This document shows, piece by piece, positions 10,473-40,389 of a stretch of DNA of 64,000 bases. Location of the stretch: the NCBI RefSeq assembly GCF_014696435.1, contig NZ_JACJQG010000016.1:62001-126000 (forward strand). Reading direction: 5' to 3'. A program made the position numbers and the translations under genes. Below the pieces are notes generated by a model. It saw nothing but the letters and a program-made list of their open reading frames with translations, had not been told where the DNA came from and ran no database searches. How positions within the stretch are numbered: the stretch's first letter is position 1; each line of letters starts with the position of its first letter. This stretch comes from Calothrix anomala FACHB-343. Lineage in GTDB: Bacteria > Cyanobacteriota > Cyanobacteriia > Cyanobacteriales > Nostocaceae.

Positions 10473-13400
10473 TTACCGAGAACTCGCGCAAGCAGCAGCT
10501 GTTAACGTCGGACTATGGGGTATAACATGAGAAGCTTGTGCAACTAAATAGATATCGCCGTTTTCACCCTTCATTAATCCCTGGGCTTCTACAATCTCCT
10601 GTGGGGAAGGATTTTCACTGATGCTACGCTGACTATTACCCGGAGAATTTTGATTATTATCTACAGTCACCCATTTTTTGACTACCGAATCTGTTTGCAG
10701 ATATTCATAAGGATTAAACGGTAAACCGCCTCTTCCCGTAATCGTAAATGAACTGGCGCTTTGTTTACTACCAGCTTGACAAGAGTTATCAATTTGTCTG
10801 GAAGCATCCAGCAGATTGGCGCTGAGTTGCACTAAGCCTTTACTGGGGTCTACTTCTGGTGTATTTATAGTCACATTACCGCTAATACCCAATTCCGAAC
10901 TAGCAGTGATACCGCTTTGTGCTGTCTGTTGTGCTTGGAATCCTATACCGAAGATTCCTTGAGTAGATATGTTAATATTGCCACCTTGACCACTAAAAGC
11001 ATTGGCTGTAATATCGCTGTTTTCTGCGGCAATGGCGATGATGAAGGGACTGTTAATGGTAATGTTACCACCATTACCGCCTGCAAAATCTGTGCCTGCT
11101 GTGGCGGTAATGTTGCTATTACGCCGCACAAATAAAAAATCTTGAATATCTAGTGTAATTTCGCCGCCATTATTACTAGTAGTAGCAGCATTAATAAAGG
11201 CTTGATTGTCTAAAGTTAAAGTCCCAGCAGTTAGGGAAATATTGCCGCCTTTACCGCTACCATTACTATTTACGCCGATACCTGCACCGTTTTTAATAAT
11301 AAAAATTTCTGGGTCAATTGTAATATTGCCGCTATCACCTGTTGCAGTTTTTTCGGTATTGGCAAATAGTCCGGTATTTGTGCCGTCTAAGGTGATATTA
11401 TCTCTGACTTGGATGTTGATATTTCCGGCTTTTTTTGTACCAGATGTGGTGGTGAGAAATTGTCCGCCGTTATTGGCGCTTAAGGTATGAGCATTAATGT
11501 TGATGTTACCGCCTTGACCATTCATTGTGGAAGCGGAGATTTTCACACCATCATTAATATTTAAGTTTTGAGTGGTAATAAGAATATTACCTGCATCGCC
11601 TATACCAGTACTTTCAACTGCTAATTTTCCTTTACCAGTAATGTTGATATTTTCCGGTGCGGTGAGAATTAAGTCACCACCTTTACCACTGCCAGAAGTA
11701 GAAGCAGAAATATTAGAATTGGGGAACAGGTTAATATCTAAATTGGGTTGATTTTGGTAAGGATTAAGTTTTAATGTACCTGCGGGGGCTTGTCCTTGGG
11801 TTTCGGCAAAAATTCCCACAATGCCTGCTAGGTCTAATTTGGAGGCGTTTAAGGTGATGCTGCCACCTTCTTGGGTATTTGTGGCGGTCTTTGTGGCGGT
11901 GGCGGTGATGCTGGCGGTGTCGGATACAGTGAGGCTAGGAGTATTGACAATGATATTTCCGGCTTTACCTGCGCCAGTGGTTTCTACAGAGATAATTGGC
12001 GCAAAGTCTTGGACGCCTTTACCTATATTTACAAAATTTAGGGCGTTAACGCTAATTGTACCGCCATTTCCGCTACCAGAAGTTGAGGCAAATATTTTAC
12101 CCTCATTAGTAATATTTAAGTTTCCAGTGGTCATGGAAATATTGCCAGCATCTCCTGTACCTTCAGACAAAGCAAACAAGCCACTATTAATTCCTAGGTT
12201 GGGATTTAAGAGATTCTTCTGGGATTGAGGTGTGTTTTGACCAGCAATATTAATCCTATCATTAGCAATAATATCAATATTTCCTGCTTTACCATTACTA
12301 CCTCTGGCAGCAGTGCTTATGATTTGTCCTCCACTTTCTATATTGATATTATTAATATTAATCCCAATTTCACCACCATTATTGCTACTGCGTGTTAGCA
12401 CACTGATAAATCCTCCATCTGCAAGATGCAAAATACCTTGAGGATTACCTTGATTAATGATAATAGTTCCACCCTTTCCACTATTAAGATTTTCACTGGA
12501 GGAAAGTAAACCACTATTAATTCTAAAGGCATTGACTCCAGAAATATCAAGAAAATCGGCATTTTTAATAAAAATGTTCCCTGCTGTACCTGCTCCCTTC
12601 GTTTGTGCTTCTATTCTTGCACCGTCTCTAATAGTTAAATTAGGAGTATCAATGGTAATATTACCTGCATTTCCCGTTGAATTATTTTCTGCTACAGCAA
12701 AGATACTACTAGAATTTTTGCCATCAGATGATGTACCAATTACTTCTACTGACTCGGAAGCAGCGATATTGATATTTCCACCAAAACCTTTATCAATAGT
12801 TCCCGCAAAAACTTTTGAACCATTATTAATACTAAGTTTATCAGTGATGATGTTTAAACTTCCTGCATTACCAGTTCCGTAGGTACTAACAGCAATAAAT
12901 CCTCCTTCTTGGAGGGAAATCTGCTTTCCTTGAATTCTCGAATTACCAGCATTACCTGAACTAAAGCTTAAAGTTACTAAACCTCCAGAACCTTGTAAGA
13001 TAATTTGGTCAGCATTAACTTCTAGATCACCACCATTGCCAACATCTGACAAATTAGACAATTGATTCTCAATTTGGTTGGTAATACTATCAGGAGTAAT
13101 TCCACCCGAATTTAATATAAATTTTGTCTCTGAATCTAACTTATTAAATTCATCCTTTACTGCTAAAAGAATTGAATTAGGAAGGATAACTGAGATATAT
13201 TTAGTTGCTATAGAGCCAGTAAATAATCCTGAATAATCTCTTGCCATTAGTTTTTTTGTATTTATTGTGAGTTTACCTGCTTCACCACTTCCTAAAGTAC
13301 CTGTCGTTATTCCAGCAGAAATATCTACTAAAAATGATTTTAAATTTTCTCTAGTCAATTCCAGGGAAACTGTTTCTGTTTTGTTACCAATAATCTCAAT

Positions 13401-15716
13401 TGATTCTGCGGCATTAATAAGAATATCTCCTACTTTACCCAGCTTAAAATCATCATTTGCAAATATTAAATAATTTAAATAATTTAAATTATTTAATTTA
13501 GATTTGATGATGCCTCGGAAATATGGTTGAGCCGTGGTAGTAATCCCAGTTTGGTACAGACGATGAGATCGATCTCGATTATCTTGAATTAGAAGTTTAT
13601 TGGTTGTTAGTTGGATATTTCCAGCATTTCCTAACCCTTGTGTAATAGATTGTAATGCACCACCATTTTTTAAATTAACTTCTTTTGCATTAACAATTAA
13701 GTTACCACCACTACCACGACCCATAGTTGTAGTTCCGAAACGAGCATGATCAGTGCCAGAGATATTTAGTACATCTGCTTCAATTATTAAATTTCCACCT
13801 TTTCCTAAACCATCTATATCTACCGAAACATCATTATTATCGGACGTTATCCGTGGGGATTTGAAGTAAATATCACCTCCTACTATTGATGAGTTGCCAC
13901 TACAGATATTTATTTCACTACAGAAATTAGTAAGACTGTTAATCAATCCTTCTATAGAGATAGAATTACCGCTAATTAGCTTAATATTTCCACCACTGTT
14001 ATTTCGGGAAGTAGAAATAGTCCGTCCAACTCTAATATCTTTTGCCGCTTCTAGTGAGATATCTCCTGATCGTCCAAAATATGAAGCAGTATACAGTGGA
14101 GCAGTTGTAAAGATATTACCTGTTCTAGAAACAAGAGAAATATTTCCGCCCTTTCCATCTGTTTCTAACAGTGAATATGAGGATGAGTTTATGCCTTTGT
14201 CTATAGGAATATCACCCTGTGCAGCAATAGAAATATCACCCTGTGCAGCAATAGAAATATGACCACCATTTCCAGATTTTCCTGAAGGTGAAGATGAGTA
14301 GGAAAGTATGGCTTGATGAGTGTAAATATTGCCTCCAGATATGAGTGTAATTGCTCCTCCATTTCCTGCATTACCTGAATTAGCAGAATAAGAGTATGAT
14401 TTTAGGGATTGTGTAAGTATATTACTCCCGGCTGTGAGTGTAATTGCTCCTCCATTTCCTGCATTACCTGAATTAGAAATGAAGGAAGTATCAATATTGC
14501 CTAATGTCAAATTTGCTCCCAAAATGCTAATATCTCTGCCATTGGTTTTAATAGTATCCGCAGCATTCATTTGAAAATTACCGATACCATCCCTATCAGC
14601 ATCAGCAATAAAGGCGATTTTTCCGCTACCATCAGCTAAATTTAAAGTGCTATTAGTCAGAGAATCAACTGTAATATTATTAGTCGCTTGCAATATCAGA
14701 TTTGTATTTCCAGACAAACCTTCTAATGTAGTTTGATAAACTGTAGCATCATTATTTTTATTTTCACTAATAGTCAGGTTTTTAGTATTGAGGAATAATG
14801 TAGCTGTAGCGATATTTCCTCTAGTTATTAAATTTTCTGTACCTGTTAATTGTACTTTTCCCTCTGGTGCTGTTAATGTGCCTGTATTAATCACATTGGC
14901 ACCAAGTAAATTTATATTTTGACCAGCATCTACTGTTAAATTACCTTGATTATTAATCGTCGCTTGCTGATTGCTCAACGCATTGCTAAATAAAGCCCCT
15001 GGTTTGACTGTCAATAAATTACTATTTTGCGGATTAGTAGCACTAAATAAGCCATTTTCACCTAATCTAATGCCATCGGCAGTAGTCGCCGTAAAGGAAC
15101 CGCGAATATCTAAAACTGCATTTTTACCAAAAATTATGCCATTGGGATTAATCAAAAACAGGTTAGCGTTACCCAATACCCCTAGAGTTCCCAGAATTTG
15201 AGAAGCATTATTTCCCGTCACCCTTGTCAAAATATTCTCAATTCCACTGGGATTGGTAAAATATGCTCCTCTTGCTGAGTCAATATTAAACTCACTAAAA
15301 CTGTGGAAAAGGTTCGCCCCGCGAATTGCACCCCCATCTATTCTGTCACTGGGAATGCCTTTAATTGTATCAGGGTTGACAACTGAGCTTTCAGTGCCAA
15401 GGGTATTATCTGGGATTATTTGCGCCTTAGCCAAGCTAAAGTGAGCCAGAGTCAAGTAAATCAGACTGGTGAACGGTAAAAAACGTATAATTTGTGAAAA
15501 TAGCCCGAAAGATACCTTTTTAAGGTTAGATTCTTCAAGATTGGACAGAAGTGTATTATCAGACTCAAGTGCAGCACGGGTATTATCAATTAAGCGGCTA
15601 TAAGCTTCAATGGTTAATCCATGTCCTAAATCAAGATTTCCATCAATGGACTTTAGCAGAGCGAGACGACGTTGGGCTTTGTCAACACCAGCAGAACCAC
15701 GAGTTCTCAAAGGCAT
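10473..15716 (-). CDS. Haemagglutinin-type (TPS-domain) secreted repeat protein with N-terminal fusion
   Basis: 1747 residues from ATG 15716, with AAGGAG eight bases upstream. Residues 1-65 (TRGSAGVDKAQRRLALLKSI, LDLGHGLTIEAYSRLI) look like the start of an unrelated small cyanobacterial protein. A hydrophobic export signal follows at about 72-97, ending AKAQ. Residues about 98-240 are a two-partner-secretion domain (NLFHSFSEFNI, NANLFLINPNGIIFG, GSFTATTADGI). The rest is a long right-handed beta-helix of GNAGNI- and GSGKGGNI-type repeats. A closing block (SCQAGSKQ, GRGGLPFNP, EIVEAQGLMKG) is shared with the protein at 32.7 kb. Family knowledge: such proteins cross the outer membrane through a TpsB/FhaC porin and act in adhesion or matrix. 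No tpsB gene is in the window. Confidence 0.88.
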   Translation of the reverse strand: MPLRTRGSAGVDKAQRRLALLKSIDGNLDLGHGLTIEAYSRLIDNTRAALESDNTLLSNLEESNLKKVSFGLFSQIIRFLPFTSLIYLTLAHFSLAKAQIIPDNTLGTESSVVNPDTIKGIPSDRIDGGAIRGANLFHSFSEFNIDSARGAYFTNPSGIENILTRVTGNNASQILGTLGVLGNANLFLINPNGIIFGKNAVLDIRGSFTATTADGIRLGENGLFSATNPQNSNLLTVKPGALFSNALSNQQATINNQGNLTVDAGQNINLLGANVINTGTLTAPEGKVQLTGTENLITRGNIATATLFLNTKNLTISENKNNDATVYQTTLEGLSGNTNLILQATNNITVDSLTNSTLNLADGSGKIAFIADADRDGIGNFQMNAADTIKTNGRDISILGANLTLGNIDTSFISNSGNAGNGGAITLTAGSNILTQSLKSYSYSANSGNAGNGGAITLISGGNIYTHQAILSYSSSPSGKSGNGGHISIAAQGDISIAAQGDIPIDKGINSSSYSLLETDGKGGNISLVSRTGNIFTTAPLYTASYFGRSGDISLEAAKDIRVGRTISTSRNNSGGNIKLISGNSISIEGLINSLTNFCSEINICSGNSSIVGGDIYFKSPRITSDNNDVSVDIDGLGKGGNLIIEADVLNISGTDHARFGTTTMGRGSGGNLIVNAKEVNLKNGGALQSITQGLGNAGNIQLTTNKLLIQDNRDRSHRLYQTGITTTAQPYFRGIIKSKLNNLNYLNYLIFANDDFKLGKVGDILINAAESIEIIGNKTETVSLELTRENLKSFLVDISAGITTGTLGSGEAGKLTINTKKLMARDYSGLFTGSIATKYISVILPNSILLAVKDEFNKLDSETKFILNSGGITPDSITNQIENQLSNLSDVGNGGDLEVNADQIILQGSGGLVTLSFSSGNAGNSRIQGKQISLQEGGFIAVSTYGTGNAGSLNIITDKLSINNGSKVFAGTIDKGFGGNINIAASESVEVIGTSSDGKNSSSIFAVAENNSTGNAGNITIDTPNLTIRDGARIEAQTKGAGTAGNIFIKNADFLDISGVNAFRINSGLLSSSENLNSGKGGTIIINQGNPQGILHLADGGFISVLTRSSNNGGEIGININNINIESGGQIISTAARGSNGKAGNIDIIANDRINIAGQNTPQSQKNLLNPNLGINSGLFALSEGTGDAGNISMTTGNLNITNEGKIFASTSGSGNGGTISVNALNFVNIGKGVQDFAPIISVETTGAGKAGNIIVNTPSLTVSDTASITATATKTATNTQEGGSITLNASKLDLAGIVGIFAETQGQAPAGTLKLNPYQNQPNLDINLFPNSNISASTSGSGKGGDLILTAPENINITGKGKLAVESTGIGDAGNILITTQNLNINDGVKISASTMNGQGGNININAHTLSANNGGQFLTTTSGTKKAGNINIQVRDNITLDGTNTGLFANTEKTATGDSGNITIDPEIFIIKNGAGIGVNSNGSGKGGNISLTAGTLTLDNQAFINAATTSNNGGEITLDIQDFLFVRRNSNITATAGTDFAGGNGGNITINSPFIIAIAAENSDITANAFSGQGGNINISTQGIFGIGFQAQQTAQSGITASSELGISGNVTINTPEVDPSKGLVQLSANLLDASRQIDNSCQAGSKQSASSFTITGRGGLPFNPYEYLQTDSVVKKWVTVDNNQNSPGNSQRSISENPSPQEIVEAQGLMKGENGDIYLVAQASHVIPHSPTLTAAACASSR

Positions 15717-32566: not shown

Positions 32567-32718
32567 ATTGTCAGCAAATTAAAGTTTATCTCCTATGCCC
32601 ACAGCGCGATCGCACTGTGGGCAAAATTATCTCGATCAATTTCAGCACATAATACTTGCAGCGATTACGGGAATACTGAAATAAAGACGAATCGCCAGAT
32701 TTGGGTAATTTGCATTTT

Positions 32719-35382
32719 ATGAATTCGCCCTTTATTCTCACTATTGCTGGAATATTTGCAACTACACATCTGATATTGACTCAACCTTGTTACCCCCAGG
32801 CGATCGCCCCAGATGGTAGTCTGAATACAAATGTTACTTCTACTGATGGGTTAAATTTTTCCATTACGGGTGGTAATCAAGCTGGCGGTAATCTTTTTCA
32901 TAGCTTTAGCGAATTCTCTGTACCTAATGGTGGTTCTGCTAATTTTAATCATGCAGCCTTTATTCAAAATATTATCAGTCGCGTGACTGGGATCGTGCCT
33001 TCTCATATCAATGGCATAATCCATACTCAGGGAAATGCTAATTTATTCTTAATTAATCCTAATGGCATTATTTTTGGTGCTAATGCCAAATTAAATATTG
33101 GTGGCTCATTTTTGGCAACTACTGCTAAAAGTTTACAGTTTGCCGATGGCAAAGAATTTAATACAAATATAGATAAAAATCCTCCATTATTAAGTATTAA
33201 TGTTCCTATCGGATTACAATTTTCTAGTAATTCAAAACCTATCCAAGTACAAACAGCTAATCTGAGAGTTTCCATCAATCAAACTCTCGCCCTGATTGGT
33301 GGTGACGTTAATATTAATGGCAGTCAATTAACTGCCGATAGCGGTCATATTGAACTCGGTGGAATAGCCGATGCAGCCACGGTTGGATTTTCATTAAACG
33401 CGAATCATTCACAATTCAATTTTCCTGACAATATTAACAGAGCTAATGTATCAATCACAGATAATTCTTTAGTCACAACCAGTGGTGATGGTGGCGGTAG
33501 CATTCAACTGACAGGAAAGCAGTTAATTATTGAAAATTCCTGGGTAAAAGCGGATACATTAGGTAATATTTCTGGCGCAAATTTAAAATTAAATGCTTCA
33601 GATTCAATCATAGTTTCAAGCAACAGAACAACCGGACTGTTTACAGATGGATTATTTGCCACAACTAGTGGTAGTGGTGATAGCTTAGGCATCACAATTA
33701 ATACTAGAAATCTTCAGGTTAAAGGCGAATCTCGCATATCTACCGCTACTTTAATAGGTTCATCTGGTAAAGGAGGTAATTTAACTATTAATGCGCAAGC
33801 AGCAGTTGAATTAATGGGTGCTGACTCTGATGATTTTTCTTTATTTACTGGGTTATTAGCAGATACTTCTGGAACTGGTAGCGGGGGAAATTTAACAGTA
33901 AATACCGGGCGATTATTCGTGCATCACGGAGCGCAAATATCTGCTGCAACTATAGCAGATGCCACAGGTGGAAACTTGACAATTAATGCTGCTAATAGTG
34001 TGGAATTAATCGGAGTCACAGATTCTGATTCCTTCAGTAGTGGTTTGTTTACAGCAGTTCAAGAAGGTAAAGGACAAGGTGGTGATTTAATAGTTAACAC
34101 TAAGAAGTTAATTATTCATGATGGGGCACAAATTTTTGCAGGTACTGCAGCCGCAGGAAATAGTGGAAATATTATCATTAATGCTATAGACTCTGTCAAC
34201 GTCAGCGGAGTATCCCTGATTCAGAAAATTCCTGGTGGTCTTTTCAGTGGTAGTAATCCCAATACTACTGGCAATGGAGGCAATATTAACATTAATACGC
34301 GGGAATTAATAGTAGAAAATGGAGGTAATATTGCTGTTGAAACCCTTGGCTCTGGCAAGGGAGGAATCCTCACAATTAATGCCACTGATGCTATTAAATT
34401 AATAGGGCAAGGTTCGCTGAGAACAGATCCGTTAGATGAAAGCAAATTAATCCCAACATTTAGTAGCCTATCTGCTAGCGTTTTAGATAGTGAAAATCAT
34501 CATCCGGCTGGTAACTTAGAAATTTCTACAGGTAAATTCTTAGTTCAGGGCGGTGCTAGGTTAAGTGTAGATAACGAAGGTAAGGGTAAGGGGGGAAATA
34601 TTAATATTCAAGCTGACTCTATAGAACTAGATAATAGAGGGAATCTACAACAAGATTTAGGAGGAATTCAAGCCACAACTAAATCTGGTGAAGGAGGTAA
34701 TATTATCTTACATATTCAAGATATTTTATTAATGCGGAACGGTAGCAAAATTACTACTGATTCTACAGGTGGTAATGGTAATGGTGGAGATATTAATATT
34801 ACTTCTGGGTTATTAGTTGCTGCTGATAATAGCGATATTACAGCTAATGCAATTGCTGGTAGAGGTGGGAATGTGCAAATTACAACGCAAGGAATATTTG
34901 GGATTGAATTTCGTCCCGAACTCACTGATAAAAGCGAAATTACAGCTAGTTCTCAGTTTGGTTTAAGTGGAACTGTAGAAATTAAAACTTTAGCTGTCGA
35001 TCCTAGCAAAGGAATTGCTGTTTTACCAACACAGCCAAATGATGCTTCAACATTAATTACTCAAAGTTGTGGACAAAATAATCCCGCAACATCCAGCCGT
35101 TTAACTATCATTGGAAGAGGTGGTTTACCACAAAATCCAGAGGTAGCTTTGGGTGGGGATCTCACTTTGCAAGATATCCAAACAGTCCCCATTTACAGCA
35201 GTAGCGATCGCACTAGAGGAGTTACTGCTTTTGCCAGTCTACCACTACCTCACTCTGATGAAATTGTCGAAGCTCAAGGACTGATAGTAACGCCCCAAGG
35301 AGATGTTGTTTTAACTGCACAGGTACTAGTACATACCCCTCATAATTCTGGATTACCCTCAGCTACTTGTAATTCAAATTAG
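32719..35382 (+). CDS. Haemagglutinin-type (TPS-domain) secreted protein
   Basis: 887 residues from ATG 32719, which starts a clean signal peptide (MNSPFILTIAGIFATTHLIL...QAIA). A TTG at 32701 is less likely. Residues about 30-160 are the two-partner-secretion domain (GGNLFHSFSEFSV, GNANLFLINPNGIIFGANA, GSFLATTAKSL). A beta-helix of GKGGNLTIN-like repeats extends to about residue 770. The C-terminal block (SCGQNNP, IIGRGGLPQNPE, DEIVEAQGLIVTPQGDV) matches the end of the 1747-residue protein at 10.5 kb. It probably crosses the outer membrane through an unlinked TpsB porin and acts in adhesion or matrix. It is the first gene of a same-strand run leading to the YcaO gene. Confidence 0.9.
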   Translation: MNSPFILTIAGIFATTHLILTQPCYPQAIAPDGSLNTNVTSTDGLNFSITGGNQAGGNLFHSFSEFSVPNGGSANFNHAAFIQNIISRVTGIVPSHINGIIHTQGNANLFLINPNGIIFGANAKLNIGGSFLATTAKSLQFADGKEFNTNIDKNPPLLSINVPIGLQFSSNSKPIQVQTANLRVSINQTLALIGGDVNINGSQLTADSGHIELGGIADAATVGFSLNANHSQFNFPDNINRANVSITDNSLVTTSGDGGGSIQLTGKQLIIENSWVKADTLGNISGANLKLNASDSIIVSSNRTTGLFTDGLFATTSGSGDSLGITINTRNLQVKGESRISTATLIGSSGKGGNLTINAQAAVELMGADSDDFSLFTGLLADTSGTGSGGNLTVNTGRLFVHHGAQISAATIADATGGNLTINAANSVELIGVTDSDSFSSGLFTAVQEGKGQGGDLIVNTKKLIIHDGAQIFAGTAAAGNSGNIIINAIDSVNVSGVSLIQKIPGGLFSGSNPNTTGNGGNININTRELIVENGGNIAVETLGSGKGGILTINATDAIKLIGQGSLRTDPLDESKLIPTFSSLSASVLDSENHHPAGNLEISTGKFLVQGGARLSVDNEGKGKGGNINIQADSIELDNRGNLQQDLGGIQATTKSGEGGNIILHIQDILLMRNGSKITTDSTGGNGNGGDINITSGLLVAADNSDITANAIAGRGGNVQITTQGIFGIEFRPELTDKSEITASSQFGLSGTVEIKTLAVDPSKGIAVLPTQPNDASTLITQSCGQNNPATSSRLTIIGRGGLPQNPEVALGGDLTLQDIQTVPIYSSSDRTRGVTAFASLPLPHSDEIVEAQGLIVTPQGDVVLTAQVLVHTPHNSGLPSATCNSN

Positions 35383-35899: not shown

Positions 35900-36466
35900 A
35901 TGCTAAGTAACTCCCAGAATTTAACCAGTACAGAAAGTCTGATTGCAGATCTCAACGATCAAGAATTAGCCGATTGTGTCGGTGGCTGTGATATTGCAGT
36001 TACTCTTGGGGAACAAGAGGTAGCAACAGTCCCACTAGTTGAATCAAAATTATTAGGCTATACCAGTATCAATGCAGGCGTGAAAATTATCAATCAAGCT
36101 CTAGATTTAGGAGTCACTTACGATCCTAATGGCTCAAAGCGCTTCTTGAGCGATCGCAATGTCAAAGAAGCCGTCGCTGAGATTGATGTTCACGATATCC
36201 TCAAGGGAATTGTGGATTTACCCATCACCACTTGGAAATATAAAAACCAAGATGAAACAATTCGTCATATAGGCCCGATGGCGCAAGACTTTGCAGCGAC
36301 GTTTAACTGTGGTGAAAGCGATCGCTTTATCAATGCTGTAGATGCTAATGGTGTCGCTTTAGCTGCAATTCAAGCACTTTACCAACTGATGCAGCAAAAA
36401 GATTCCCAAATCAGAGAACTGCAAATACAGTTACTGCAACTACAGCAACAGATAACTGATAAATAG
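35900..36466 (+). CDS. Double-glycine-leader protein with S74/tail-fibre chaperone domain, copy A
   Basis: 188 residues from ATG 35900, with AAAAGG eight bases upstream. Residues 1-29 look like a RiPP/class II leader: ESLIADLNDQELADCVGG with Gly28-Gly29. Residues 30-83 are a 54-residue middle segment with one Cys and little similarity to copy B. From Ser84 the sequence is a phage-type intramolecular chaperone (Peptidase S74-like): FLSDRNVKEAV, LPITTWKYKNQDETIRHIGP, MAQDFAATF, VDANGVALAAIQALYQ and a C-terminal coiled coil. Ser84 and Lys89 have the Ser/Lys spacing of autocleaving S74 domains. It is followed after 76 bp by copy B and then by a YcaO gene. It is probably a modified or processed substrate; that role is inference. 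Confidence 0.8.
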   Translation: MLSNSQNLTSTESLIADLNDQELADCVGGCDIAVTLGEQEVATVPLVESKLLGYTSINAGVKIINQALDLGVTYDPNGSKRFLSDRNVKEAVAEIDVHDILKGIVDLPITTWKYKNQDETIRHIGPMAQDFAATFNCGESDRFINAVDANGVALAAIQALYQLMQQKDSQIRELQIQLLQLQQQITDK

Positions 36467-36542
36467 GCTCAATTTATCGCAAAAATGCCATTAATTAGCC
36501 AATATTGTCCATATCTAATTTCAAACGATCATCAGGAAAATT

Positions 36543-37073
36543 ATGTACAATGATGACCAAAACCCTGTACCCACAGTCAGCTTAATTGAAGAATTAACGG
36601 ATGATGAATTAGCAAATTGTGTTGGCGGTACTGGCTATATTAATCCTGCAGAACAAGAAATTCCTGGAAATCATGGCACACTAAACGCTCTCGGTTTACA
36701 GGATAACCTACATCTATATTTAGATCCTGATGGCTCAAAGCGTTTCTTGAGCGATCGCTATGTCAAAGAAGTTGTAGCTGATGTCGATGTTCAAGCTATT
36801 CTTTTGGGAATTGCCAATTTACCCATAACTTCTTGGAAGTATAAAAACCAGGATGAAACAATTCGCCATATCGGCCCGATGGCGCAAGACTTTGCGGCAA
36901 TTTTTAACTGTGGTGAGAGCGATCGCTTTATTAATAGCGTAGATGCTAATGGTGTCGCTTTAGCGGCAATTCAAGCACTTTATCAAAAAATACAAGGGCA
37001 AGATTTACAAATCAATAGCCTAAGTCAGCAAATTAGCGAAATAAAACAAAATTTGCTAATCAAGTCCCAATAA
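36543..37073 (+). CDS. Double-glycine-leader protein with S74/tail-fibre chaperone domain, copy B
   Basis: 176 residues from ATG 36543, with AGGA close upstream. The leader VSLIEELTDDELANCVGG has Gly28-Gly29 at the same positions as copy A. The middle segment (30-69, TGYINPAEQEIPGNHG...) is shorter and unrelated, without cysteine. From GSKRFLSDRYVKEVV onward the domain matches copy A closely (KNQDETIRHIGPMAQDF, FNCGESDRF, DANGVALAAIQALYQ), with Ser70/Lys75 conserved and a short coiled coil at the end. DNA in this part is about 90 percent identical to copy A by eye, whereas the middle cannot be aligned. It lies 53 bp before the YcaO gene, which suggests one operon. Confidence 0.8.
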   Translation: MYNDDQNPVPTVSLIEELTDDELANCVGGTGYINPAEQEIPGNHGTLNALGLQDNLHLYLDPDGSKRFLSDRYVKEVVADVDVQAILLGIANLPITSWKYKNQDETIRHIGPMAQDFAAIFNCGESDRFINSVDANGVALAAIQALYQKIQGQDLQINSLSQQISEIKQNLLIKSQ

Positions 37074-37126
37074 ATTCTTGTTTTCGCAAAAAACCTTTAC
37101 TGTGTTTATATTGCACAGCAAAAATT

Positions 37127-39352
37127 ATGCTCATCCAGCCGAAGTTTTACGAGCATTTTCATATTGAATTATCTCCTCCCAAAACTGTATTTTTATTAAG
37201 TGAAAAAGGGCATTTTGTCCTGAATGGGCGTTTATATTACCTTTTAGCACCCCTACTTAATGGACTTTACACAGTAGAGGAAATCATTCAACAATTGCAA
37301 GGACAAGCTAAGGCTGATGAAATTCTTTATGGTTTAGAACAATTGCATCGTAAAGGTTATATTACCAACGCAGATAACATTCCACCTCATGAATCTGCTT
37401 TTTGGGGACTGCTAAATCAAGATGCTAACTCGGTTACCCAAGCGCAAAAAGCAGCTAAAGTTAGCATTACCACCTTTGGTAGCGTCAAATCACAGCCATT
37501 AACTGCAATTTTAGAATCTCTGAATATTCCCTTGGCGGATACTGGTAAATTTGCTGTGGTGGTTACAGATGACTATCTTCAACCAGGATTAGCACAATTT
37601 AACCACGAAGCTTTACAACAGCAGCTTCCTTGGTTATTAGTCAAACCTGTAGGTAGTGTAATTTGGATTGGCCCCATTTTTCGTCCTGGCGTTACAGGTT
37701 GCTGGGAATGTCTCGCACAGCGTTTAAGAATGAATCGTGAGGTTGAGTCTTTTTTACAAGAACAAAAGCAAACCCTCAACCCATTTTTGATTTCTCGTGC
37801 GGCGTTACCTTCAACTGTAGATACTGCGCTGAATTTAGCAGCTACAGAAATTGCTAAATGGTTAAGTAATCCCGAAAATCATACCCTAGAAGGGACATTA
37901 TTAACTTTTGATTTAATCAATCTCAATATTCAACGCCATACTTTAGTTCGTCGTCCCCAATGCGATTGTTGCGGCGAAATAGCCTATCAGCAACCACAAC
38001 CTCAACCATTGGTATTAACTAGCCAACCCAAGCAATTCAGCGATGATGGGGGGTATCGCAGTTGTTTACCAGAGCAAGCTTGGCAAAATTACGAACATCA
38101 TATAAGTCCGGTAACTGGCGTAATTAAAAATATATTTCAACCCTTCCAGAACAACGAGCTGATTCACGCCTATGTTGTTGAGCATAGTTTACCGTATAAA
38201 GGCAGAAGGTTAGAGGATTTACGTCAAAAAAGCTTTGGTAAGGGGAAAACAGCCGCCCAAGCGAAGATGAGCGCCTTAGGCGAAGCAATTGAACGCTATT
38301 GTGGAGCTTTTACGGGAGAAGAACCAAGGGTGAAAGCTGCTTATGCTAATTTGCAAGAATTGGCGATTCATCCTGATAAGTTTATGCATTATAGCGCCAA
38401 TCAATACCGCGATCGCCAAATTTGGAATCAGCAACACCATGTTATTCAATGGATACCCGATCCCTTTGATGAAAGTCAAGAAATAGAATGGTCGCCGCTT
38501 TGGTCGCTAAATCAGCGACAATTTAAATATCTGCCAACAGCCTATTGTTATTATGGCTATCCTCTCCCAGAAAACCACAACTTTTGTTTTGCAGATACTA
38601 ATGGTACAGCTGCGGGAAGTTGTAAAGAAGAGGCTATTCTTCAGGGATTTATGGAATTAGTCGAGCGGGATGCAGTAGCTATTTGGTGGTATAACCGACT
38701 AGCAAAACCTGGGGTAAATCTCCAAAGTTTTGACGAGCCGTATCTAAATAAATTACATACATACTATAAATTTATCGGTCGTGATTTGTGGGTATTAGAC
38801 TTAACTACCGATTTAAATATTCCCACATTCGCTGCAATTTCTCGCCGCTACAATCAACAGCCAGAAGATATTTTATTTGGCTTTGGTACTCACTTTGATG
38901 CCAAAGTTGCTCTGTTACGTGCTGTTACAGAAATGAATCAGATGGTATTTCTCTCTAGTGGTGGAAATCCTCAAGCTTCTGCCAAATTTAGCCGTCAAGA
39001 TATACAGTATTGGTGTACGACTGCTACATTAGAAAATCAGCCTTACTTAGCACCGGATATTAATGCTAGACTCAAAGTTTACACAGATTATGCTCCCTAC
39101 CATAGTAATGATTTGCAACAAGATGTAATTAATTGTGTAAATTTAGCTGCAACAAAAGAGCTAGAAATATTGGTTCTAGAGCAAACACGCCCAGATATTG
39201 CTATACCTGTTGTGAAAGTTGTGGTTCCCGGCTTGCGTCACTTTTGGGCACAGTTTGCACCAGGACGATTGTATGAAGTTCCCGTAAACATGGGATGGTT
39301 AAAAGCAGAACTTCCAGAAACTCTGCTTAATCCAATTCCTATGTTTTTGTAA
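37127..39352 (+). CDS. Fused leader-binding/E1-like/YcaO cyclodehydratase (TOMM maturase type)
   Basis: 741 residues from ATG 37127. Residues 1-80 resemble a PqqD-type leader-recognition domain (FLLSEKGHFVLNGRLYYLL...EILYGLEQLHRKGYI). Residues about 110-290 are an E1/ocin-ThiF-like part with a probable zinc site, CWEC (192-195) and CDCC (279-282). Residues about 320-741 form the YcaO domain, with ATP-site acidic residues in KMSALGEAIERY (Glu386, Glu389), CKEEAILQGFMELVERDAVA and LLRAVTEMNQ. The C-terminus NPIPMFL is close to the PxPxP tail of azoline-forming YcaOs. Family knowledge: such fusions phosphorylate peptide backbone amides to form azolines on Cys/Ser/Thr. No flavin dehydrogenase, peptidase or transporter gene adjoins it. 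The likely substrates are the two leader proteins upstream. Confidence 0.88.
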   Translation: MLIQPKFYEHFHIELSPPKTVFLLSEKGHFVLNGRLYYLLAPLLNGLYTVEEIIQQLQGQAKADEILYGLEQLHRKGYITNADNIPPHESAFWGLLNQDANSVTQAQKAAKVSITTFGSVKSQPLTAILESLNIPLADTGKFAVVVTDDYLQPGLAQFNHEALQQQLPWLLVKPVGSVIWIGPIFRPGVTGCWECLAQRLRMNREVESFLQEQKQTLNPFLISRAALPSTVDTALNLAATEIAKWLSNPENHTLEGTLLTFDLINLNIQRHTLVRRPQCDCCGEIAYQQPQPQPLVLTSQPKQFSDDGGYRSCLPEQAWQNYEHHISPVTGVIKNIFQPFQNNELIHAYVVEHSLPYKGRRLEDLRQKSFGKGKTAAQAKMSALGEAIERYCGAFTGEEPRVKAAYANLQELAIHPDKFMHYSANQYRDRQIWNQQHHVIQWIPDPFDESQEIEWSPLWSLNQRQFKYLPTAYCYYGYPLPENHNFCFADTNGTAAGSCKEEAILQGFMELVERDAVAIWWYNRLAKPGVNLQSFDEPYLNKLHTYYKFIGRDLWVLDLTTDLNIPTFAAISRRYNQQPEDILFGFGTHFDAKVALLRAVTEMNQMVFLSSGGNPQASAKFSRQDIQYWCTTATLENQPYLAPDINARLKVYTDYAPYHSNDLQQDVINCVNLAATKELEILVLEQTRPDIAIPVVKVVVPGLRHFWAQFAPGRLYEVPVNMGWLKAELPETLLNPIPMFL

Positions 39353-39447: not shown

Positions 39448-40389
39448 ATGAAGTTTAAGATAACTAGCGATCAAGCTAGTATTTTCCCATCTAAAAGACA
39501 ACCATTTATCGGCAAAAGTTATCAAGAAAATTTTGTGAATATTTTTGATGCTTATCCCGATTTGATTTTGTTAACAACCTTGGGCAAGGGTTCTTGCGTA
39601 GAAGTAAATCAAACTTTTTTAAATATCACAGGCTACAGCCGGGAAAATGTCATCGGTACGCCAATTACAGTTTTGGATATGGGATTAACCATTGACAGTT
39701 ATGCGCAAATCAAAAAAAAGTCCCAGACACAGGATTTTATCCAAAATTTAGAAATTGAATTTTGTTTAAAGTCTGGGGAAAAACGCATCGGGTTGCTATC
39801 TGTTAAGCGCTTAGAATGGTTCGGCAAAACTTATTTACTAAATGTGATTCGTGATATTACAGAGCGGAAACAAATAGAAGATGATTTACGCCGCATAGCT
39901 ATGCACGATCCCTTGACAGGTTTACCCAATCGGGCTTACTTTATGCAGCAATTAGATTATGTCATTGAATCGCTGCAATATCATCCTGATTCTTGTTCTT
40001 ATATTCTCTTTTTAGATTTGGATGCATTTAAAGCAATTAATGACAATTTCGGTCATGCTATGGGAGATAAATTATTAGTTGAAATTAGTCAGAGGCTCAG
40101 AGCAATACTCAGATGGGGAGATTTTATTGCGCGTTTAGGTGGTGATGAATTTGTGATTCTGCTGGAGGATGTGCAAAATTTTCGTTATGCTACGCGCATT
40201 GCTAATCAAGTAATTACTGCACTTAAACAACCAATGTTATTCAATGGGCAGAAAATTTCTTGTTCGGTGAGTATTGGGATATCCATGATTTCTGATGCGG
40301 AAAAATCACCGGAGGAAATATTAGATAAAGCTGATGCGGCAATGTATCAGGCGAAAGCGTTTGGTAAGAGTCGGTATCATGTGGGTTAG
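39448..40389 (+). CDS. PAS-GGDEF diguanylate cyclase
   Basis: 313 residues from ATG 39448. Residues about 25-140 form a PAS domain (FDAYPDLILLTTLGKGSCVE, NQTFLNITGYSRENVIG) with a PAC-like end (NVIRDITERKQIEDDLRRI). The GGDEF domain follows: HDPLTGLPNRAYF, FLDLDAFKAINDNFGHAMGD and an intact GGDEF (231-235). RWGD (222-225) fits the RxxD product-inhibition site. The enzyme should make cyclic di-GMP from GTP under control of a PAS sensor of unknown ligand. There are no membrane segments. It lies 95 bp after the YcaO gene on the same strand; whether it is co-transcribed is unclear. Confidence 0.9.
   Translation: MKFKITSDQASIFPSKRQPFIGKSYQENFVNIFDAYPDLILLTTLGKGSCVEVNQTFLNITGYSRENVIGTPITVLDMGLTIDSYAQIKKKSQTQDFIQNLEIEFCLKSGEKRIGLLSVKRLEWFGKTYLLNVIRDITERKQIEDDLRRIAMHDPLTGLPNRAYFMQQLDYVIESLQYHPDSCSYILFLDLDAFKAINDNFGHAMGDKLLVEISQRLRAILRWGDFIARLGGDEFVILLEDVQNFRYATRIANQVITALKQPMLFNGQKISCSVSIGISMISDAEKSPEEILDKADAAMYQAKAFGKSRYHVG

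Follow-up and report, generated by a model that had tools for sequence, protein, structure and literature searches.

Does a YcaO enzyme modify peptides that carry a self-cleaving chaperone of their own? The question is raised by an operon of Calothrix anomala FACHB-343 that lies in the 64,000-nucleotide stretch of contig NZ_JACJQG010000016.1 analyzed here (the window, from whose first letter positions are counted). Two tandem genes encode proteins (P0001 and P0002) that join a leader ending in a double glycine to a C-terminal Peptidase_S74 domain, and a third encodes a fused YcaO enzyme (P0003). We conclude that the operon is a real, conserved and narrow variant of the YcaO pathways for ribosomally synthesized and post-translationally modified peptides (RiPPs), with an unusual precursor in which a leader and a core are followed by a chaperone domain of a self-cleaving type. 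Directly observed are its architecture and synteny, the clade to which its enzyme belongs, the conservation of motifs, and purifying selection. We give about an even chance to the fuller reading, an azoline-type (thiazole/oxazole-modified microcin, TOMM) YcaO RiPP operon with two precursors bearing a self-cleaving, trimerizing C-terminal follower.

Architecture of the operon

A sequence-only reading of this DNA had described two adjacent genes for proteins with a leader ending in CVGG and an S74 domain, followed 53 bp later by a fusion of a RiPP recognition element (RRE), an E1-like domain and YcaO ending in NPIPMFL. The open reading frames (ORFs) and profile matches agree with this description. 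P0001 and P0002 are 60% identical to each other, both leaders end in C26-V27-G28-G29, and P0003 begins 53 bp past the stop codon of P0002. The features are as follows.

35900..36466, + strand: precursor 1 (P0001, type B), 188 aa, with leader, core, S74 and coiled tail (ORF, PF13884)
35900..35986, + strand: leader of precursor 1, residues 1-29, with L18(X)4L23 and GG (alignment)
35987..36148, + strand: predicted core of precursor 1, residues 30-83 (54 aa), bounded by GG and, by analogy, the S74 cut
36122..36142, + strand: DPNGSKR motif of precursor 1, residues 75-81
36149..36463, + strand: S74 chaperone, predicted to be self-cleaving, and coiled tail of precursor 1 (PF13884)
36149-36151 and 36164-36166, + strand: S84 and K89, the S74 dyad of precursor 1
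36543..37073, + strand: precursor 2 (P0002, type C), 176 aa, with leader, core, S74 and coiled tail (ORF, PF13884)
36543..36629, + strand: leader of precursor 2, residues 1-29 (alignment)
36630..36749, + strand: predicted core of precursor 2, residues 30-69 (40 aa), ending in DPDGSKRFL (alignment)
36750..37070, + strand: S74 and coiled tail of precursor 2 (PF13884)
37127..39352, + strand: fused RRE/E1/YcaO cyclodehydratase P0003, 741 aa (profile matches; nearest solved relatives MusD, LynD and TruD)

The YcaO fusion enzyme and its clade

P0003 has the fused E1 and YcaO cyclodehydratase organization of YcaO/TOMM RiPP pathways, as judged from TIGR03882 ('TOMM precursor leader peptide-binding protein', 8.1e-51), TIGR03604 (2.9e-78), PF02624 (YcaO, 1.2e-97) and its best solved relatives in the PDB, MusD (738 bits), LynD (721) and TruD (700). 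Residues 9-80 match the winged-helix model PF21084 (5.7e-18). The frame is intact, and in the MusD and LynD alignments the blocks that we take to be the ATP site align. LynD likewise ends in NPxPM, and the NPIPMFL ending is ordinary for this enzyme type, since most listed relatives close with a comparable LNPxPxxx.

A 58-enzyme tree, built from the P0003 group, the 22 next best matches and every fifth of the remainder, placed the 16 rows of the P0003 group in one clade with a support of 100/100. Clade counts given below refer to 15 non-redundant loci, with the duplicates or near-duplicates L053, L056, L057, L186 and L194 left out. The 121 comparison E1-YcaO loci are 118 of 120 fetched regions plus L069, L071 and L073, the last being a short fragment with 70% identity and possibly a clade member itself; nearly full flanks were present in 94 of the 121 for the 3 kb tests and in 84 for the 5 kb tests.

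Outside the clade, the closest enzymes found come from Nif11/NHLP loci, such as that of Nostoc sp. C057 (53% identity), which contains Nif11, NHLP, SagB and an NHLP-type peptidase-ABC exporter, and L168, which contains a Nif11 leader protein (TIGR03798) and SagB (TIGR03605). The P0003 clade may derive from such a pathway by gain of another leader and loss of the oxidase. A plasmid search with P0003 returned a best match of 53% and no near copy.

Leader, core and a precursor-specific motif

Adjacent precursors with a recognizable leader, bearing L(X)4L and GG, were found in all 14 clade loci that have upstream DNA. In an alignment of 26 precursors (17 with S74 and nine short), L14, L18, D20, G28 and G29 are invariant, and L18(X)4L23 occurs in 25; the leader is 29-36 residues long in most rows and 48 in one. 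According to the accessible part of one study (PMC12455567), these leucines of PatE contact the RRE of LynD, and their replacement by alanine in MprE7 abolished YcaO modification. LAELSEE is described as common to cyanobactin precursors in the accessible part of another (PMC4558948). The shared motif, as in the docking of PatE on LynD, supports enzyme-precursor pairing at the level of sequence. NCBIfam gave no Nif11 or NHLP leader-domain match for P0001, P0002 or five relatives, and PDB searches yielded no matches with the leader piece and four weak ones, all unrelated, with the precursor profile.

The residue right after GG is Cys or Thr in 25 of the 26 precursors. Just before the predicted cut stands a DPNGSxR-type motif, of which Ser79 and Arg81 are present in all 26 and the remaining letters differ in one to four of the rows. 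It was absent from five secreted-type S74 proteins compared by eye (a sixth, L237, was left out) and, in a pattern search, from 16 other cyanobacterial S74 proteins, some with incomplete sequences. As it was not seen in these 21 proteins, we rejected it as a normal part of S74, and the motif seems to belong to the precursor. The predicted S74 cut lies two residues (once five) after the motif Arg, and S74-free precursors end four to nine residues after it.

Distribution and co-occurrence with YcaO

A two-row precursor profile matched 11 of 388 genomes of the order. Leader-plus-S74 proteins numbered seven in four of these genomes (two each in G000, G381 and G359, and one in G003), all directly upstream of an E1-YcaO match; the single gene of G003, which belongs to another family, also stands directly upstream of YcaO. 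Short leader proteins occupy the same position in G077 and G321, and G359 has an extra one elsewhere. S74 itself was commoner, with 73 matches in 47 of the 388 genomes, seven of them leader-bearing. No GG leader was found among 23 N-termini read from the 66 non-precursor S74 matches (20 plus three; one of the 20 lacked an intact frame, and some were ended by contig edges); a leader-pattern match in L233 was judged false on reading. Among the matches listed, a by-eye comparison found no other S74 near E1-YcaO, the nearest being about 79 kb away in G300. That genome has 16 S74 matches, many equal-scoring and with frames of about 290 aa, like a repeated element.

Within the genus, the tandem pair was directly upstream of YcaO in 9 of 9 genomes, that of the window being the ninth, giving 18 S74 precursors; judging by identical sequences, several of these genomes are strains also among the named relatives. 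A phylum sample of 386 genomes, which overlaps the order set, contained eight matching genomes and no new leader protein; three genomes outside the order matched the S74 portion only. A scan of genome contigs returned 15 related loci, including those of Calothrix brevissima NIES-22 (YcaO 96%), Tolypothrix FACHB-123, Nostoc sp. 106C, Nostoc sp. T09, N. carneum, N. linckia, Mojavia pulchra, Trichormus M33 and an Aphanothece metagenome-assembled genome (MAG). Two others, at 45-46%, were from one Microcoleaceae and one Acidobacteria MAG. With one genus, one other family with S74 (G003) and a few short-form relatives, the system is narrow.

The leader-plus-S74 pair thus co-occurs with YcaO more than expected by chance. 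The sequence-only reading had proposed that the leader proteins and YcaO are partners and would recur together in other genomes. They do so in 7 of 7 cases in the order and in 9 of 9 genus genomes, and conserved synteny together with the LynD-RRE-type L(X)4L motif makes enzyme-substrate pairing well supported on sequence grounds.

The S74 chaperone domain

Both precursors matched Peptidase_S74 (PF13884) above its curated cut-off, with E values of 8.6e-11 (P0001) and 7.2e-10 (P0002). The Ser-x4-Lys dyad (S84 and K89) and D85 are kept in all 17 S74 precursors aligned. In MyRF, as reported in the accessible parts of two papers (PMC8326128, PMC3742443), the cut falls between P586 and S587, S587A or K592A stops it, these residues correspond to S911 and K916 of endoNF, and the trimer is required for cutting. 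The analogous cut in P0001 would fall between L83 and S84. The earlier idea that S74 is cleavage-competent fits the conserved dyad, and autocleavage appears fairly supported.

The likeness to phage fibers, also suggested in the sequence-only reading, fared less well. Phage S74 matches were 31-39% identical across a third to half of P0001 (20 records), compared with 39-55% for bacterial or archaeal plasmid matches (12 of 15 records listed). Five secreted-type S74 domains were 42-58% identical to four Nostoc precursor domains over 80 residues, and the nearest outside S74 domains read are on secreted-looking proteins. Phage as the nearest source was ruled out among the sequences searched, the plasmid and secreted-type matches being closer. 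The S74 of G003 is 59-60% identical to Nostoc S74 and 46-52% to outside S74; an S74 tree, in which the outside row L010 is too short for its position to have meaning, gave it no resolved place.

Short forms, S74 loss and selection

Short type A precursors, which lack S74 and stand far from YcaO, were found in five of the nine genus genomes (L257, L259, L260, L261 and L058:9652-9918); the same search found none in the genome of the window. These orphans are under purifying selection, with non-synonymous rates (dN) of 0-0.04 and synonymous rates (dS) of 0.17-0.42 over 10 pairs. Mojavia pulchra (L060:7488-8001) has a single short precursor, then an S74 remnant in broken frames (E 1.7e-5) and an intact-looking YcaO. 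The remnant past the stop points to loss of S74 in one lineage at least. In Trichormus, the precursor-profile match continues through two stops, and an S74-only search did not report it. The short forms are not all independent designs, some having apparently arisen by decay.

We calculated dN/dS as mean dN over mean dS (NG86), excluding pairs with dS outside 0.05-3. The values for leader, core and S74 were 0.20, 0.55 and 0.09 in type B, and 0.23, 0.23 and 0.20 in type C; short type A gave 0.30 for the leader and 0.17 for the core. Given this purifying selection, S74 looks like a working part.

Neighboring genes

One further gene is a putative member of the system.

32701..35382, + strand: two-partner secretion (TPS)-domain exoprotein, 893 aa, conserved upstream neighbor (PF05860, E 8.1e-62)

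A TPS-type exoprotein stands within 3 kb of 14 of the 15 clade loci (14 of 14 with upstream DNA), compared with 2 of 121 others. Among the rows compared, clade TPS neighbors are 42-92% identical mutually and 30-38% identical to other TPS proteins, forming their own similarity group; the likeness holds in L055 and L066 too, despite differing orientation. S74 of the precursor kind was present in none of the 121 other loci. Five clade loci (L059, L068, L070, L066 and L055) have a C39 peptidase-ABC gene no more than 5 kb away, and one of the two queries used also found such a gene in 2 of 121 others, with C39 domains confirmed for L055 and for L053, which shares a contig with L068; HlyD-type partners occur in three loci. 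As the TPS, C39, HlyD and S74 queries came from the clade itself, these comparisons are biased toward clade matches. A SagB-like oxidase was found within 5 kb of none of the 15 clade loci and of 35 of the 121 others. The sequence-only reading mentioned neither the DPNGSxR-type motif nor the conserved TPS exoprotein, nor the C39 exporters beside some relatives' operons.

Directly downstream of YcaO is a PAS-GGDEF (diguanylate cyclase) gene (39448-40389), which is present too in the S74-type Nostoc loci and not in L060, L065, L066 or L070. Elsewhere in the window are a second TPS-like exoprotein of 1747 aa (10473-15716), about 35% identical to the operon's TPS neighbor; a TPR-CHAT protein (PF12770, 6973-9555); a PIN-domain gene (PF01850, 10008-10352) with a short upstream partner in a toxin-antitoxin-like arrangement, whose C-terminus is a run of CQLSTVN-like repeats; and, on the - strand, a 252-aa gene with two tandem rifampin ADP-ribosyltransferase domains (Arr-ms, PF12120, 46042-46800).

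Comparison with known systems

The operon resembles cyanobactin pathways (PatD/TruD/LynD/MusD) in its fused RRE/E1/YcaO enzyme and in a leader with an L(X)4L or LAELSEE-like motif. It differs from them in the GG leader, the cores of 40-54 residues (S74 forms), the S74 follower and the lack of a PatA/PatG-type S8 protease on the contig: nine PF00082 matches were found in the genome, none of them on this contig, which rules out cyanobactin membership. An S8 text pattern matched nothing among the 60 loci listed, outgroups included, and is unusable as a test. According to the accessible part of a TOMM survey (PMC4603692), cyanobactin enzymes group with NHLP/Nif11 enzymes, and NHLP/Nif11 clusters lack PatA/G. 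The present clade shares with NHLP/Nif11 TOMM pathways, as far as the accessible sources describe them, its closest outside enzymes, a GG leader, the absence of PatA/G and, putatively, C39 export, but has a short leader that is not an NHLP or Nif11 domain, an S74 follower and a TPS neighbor, and lacks the SagB-like oxidase (15 loci). With the S74/ICA self-cleaving chaperones endoNF and MYRF it shares PF13884, the Ser-x4-Lys dyad and a coiled C-terminal tail, whereas its S74 is attached to a RiPP-type leader and core rather than to a fiber or a transcription factor.

The open-access literature searched, exclusive of preprints, contained no paper joining Peptidase S74 and YcaO, 'tail fiber domain-containing' proteins and RiPP 'leader peptide', endosialidase and 'ribosomally synthesized' peptides, or 'two-partner secretion' and cyanobacterial RiPPs. 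Its accessible text on Peptidase_S74 in cyanobacteria concerns polinton-like viruses and injection systems, and nothing similar appeared in the accessible parts of surveys of cyanobacterial bacteriocins (PMC3140520) and TOMM clusters (PMC4603692).

Proposed pathway and alternative explanations

From these data we infer modification, product and function. The leader strand would dock via L(X)4L on the RRE of the fused E1-YcaO, as PatE does on LynD, and the enzyme would cyclodehydrate core Cys, Ser or Thr residues. Azolines only would be expected, because no SagB-like oxidase is nearby; the best candidate sites are the residue that follows GG (Cys or Thr) and, within the DPNGSxR-type motif, the invariant Ser. 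S74 would then trimerize and, as in MyRF and endoNF, cut just before Ser84 via Ser84-Lys89 to free the core. A C39 peptidase-ABC exporter encoded elsewhere in the genome would cut after GG and export the product, expected to be a pair of peptides 54 and 40 residues long; a role of C39 in export is plausible.

Parts of RiPP precursors are usually removed by separate proteases. We tentatively suggest, while thinking it more probably wrong than right, a folding-gated maturation in which the S74 trimer holds the precursor during leader-guided cyclodehydration and, once trimerized, cuts the core loose without a separate protease. At the cell surface, the freed two-peptide product, possibly still trimeric, would work together with the TPS exoprotein. 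The conserved TPS neighbor is the only hint of a surface location, and the surface polypeptide that the sequence-only reading put forward as a possible product is not supported.

Several observations weigh against the azoline-operon reading. The cores are Cys-poor, with one Cys in that of precursor 1 and none in that of precursor 2, and the type B core is less constrained and evolves faster (dN/dS 0.55). Three loci (L055, L060 and L066) have a single precursor instead of two. C39 exporters lie within 5 kb in just 5 of the 15 clade loci, and none is on the contig of the window, the genome's 10 C39 matches being elsewhere. Mojavia, and probably Trichormus, lost S74 while keeping YcaO, so S74 is dispensable there; the earlier view of S74 as an essential part does not hold for these relatives, nor for the paralogs without it.

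Such losses could mean that the S74 tail is an acquired passenger now being lost, with no part in peptide making. Mojavia's remnant past the stop and the Trichormus match running through stops are what such a passenger would leave, but all 18 operon precursors found in the genus carry S74, which is under strong purifying selection and has its dyad intact in 17 of 17, and we regard this explanation as very improbable. The scarcity of Cys, Ser and Thr in the cores, together with a weak, below-cut-off match of one short form to 'CTB family bacteriocin', would also suit unmodified class II-type peptides beside a YcaO that acts elsewhere or is a leftover. This seems distinctly improbable, as each of the 14 clade loci for which upstream DNA is available has leader proteins next to the enzyme, L(X)4L is kept in 25 of 26 precursors, and the enzyme's frame is intact, with active-site blocks that align to LynD. 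Finally, S74 might belong structurally to a secreted or surface trimer and be retained or trimmed late; YcaO would mark the short head of that protein, the leader would direct its export, and the product would function with TPS as an adhesin. The TPS exoprotein near 14 of the 15 clade loci, with its own similarity group, and the secreted-looking carriers of the nearest outside S74 domains are in line with this. However, the middle piece has just 40-54 residues with no fiber repeats seen, relatives and paralogs retain the core without S74, and the cutting dyad is fully conserved; we consider a structural trimer unlikely, though worth keeping in mind.

Implications

The azoline-operon reading, if confirmed at the bench, would be a novel route by which a modified peptide is produced and released, uniting leader-guided YcaO chemistry with the folding-sensor proteolysis of S74. 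The precursors are a natural family with their own follower, predicted to cleave itself and trimerize, beside a well understood enzyme, and the paralogs with and without S74, in some strains inside one genome, provide natural controls. A self-removing follower of this kind could also serve the production of modified peptides.

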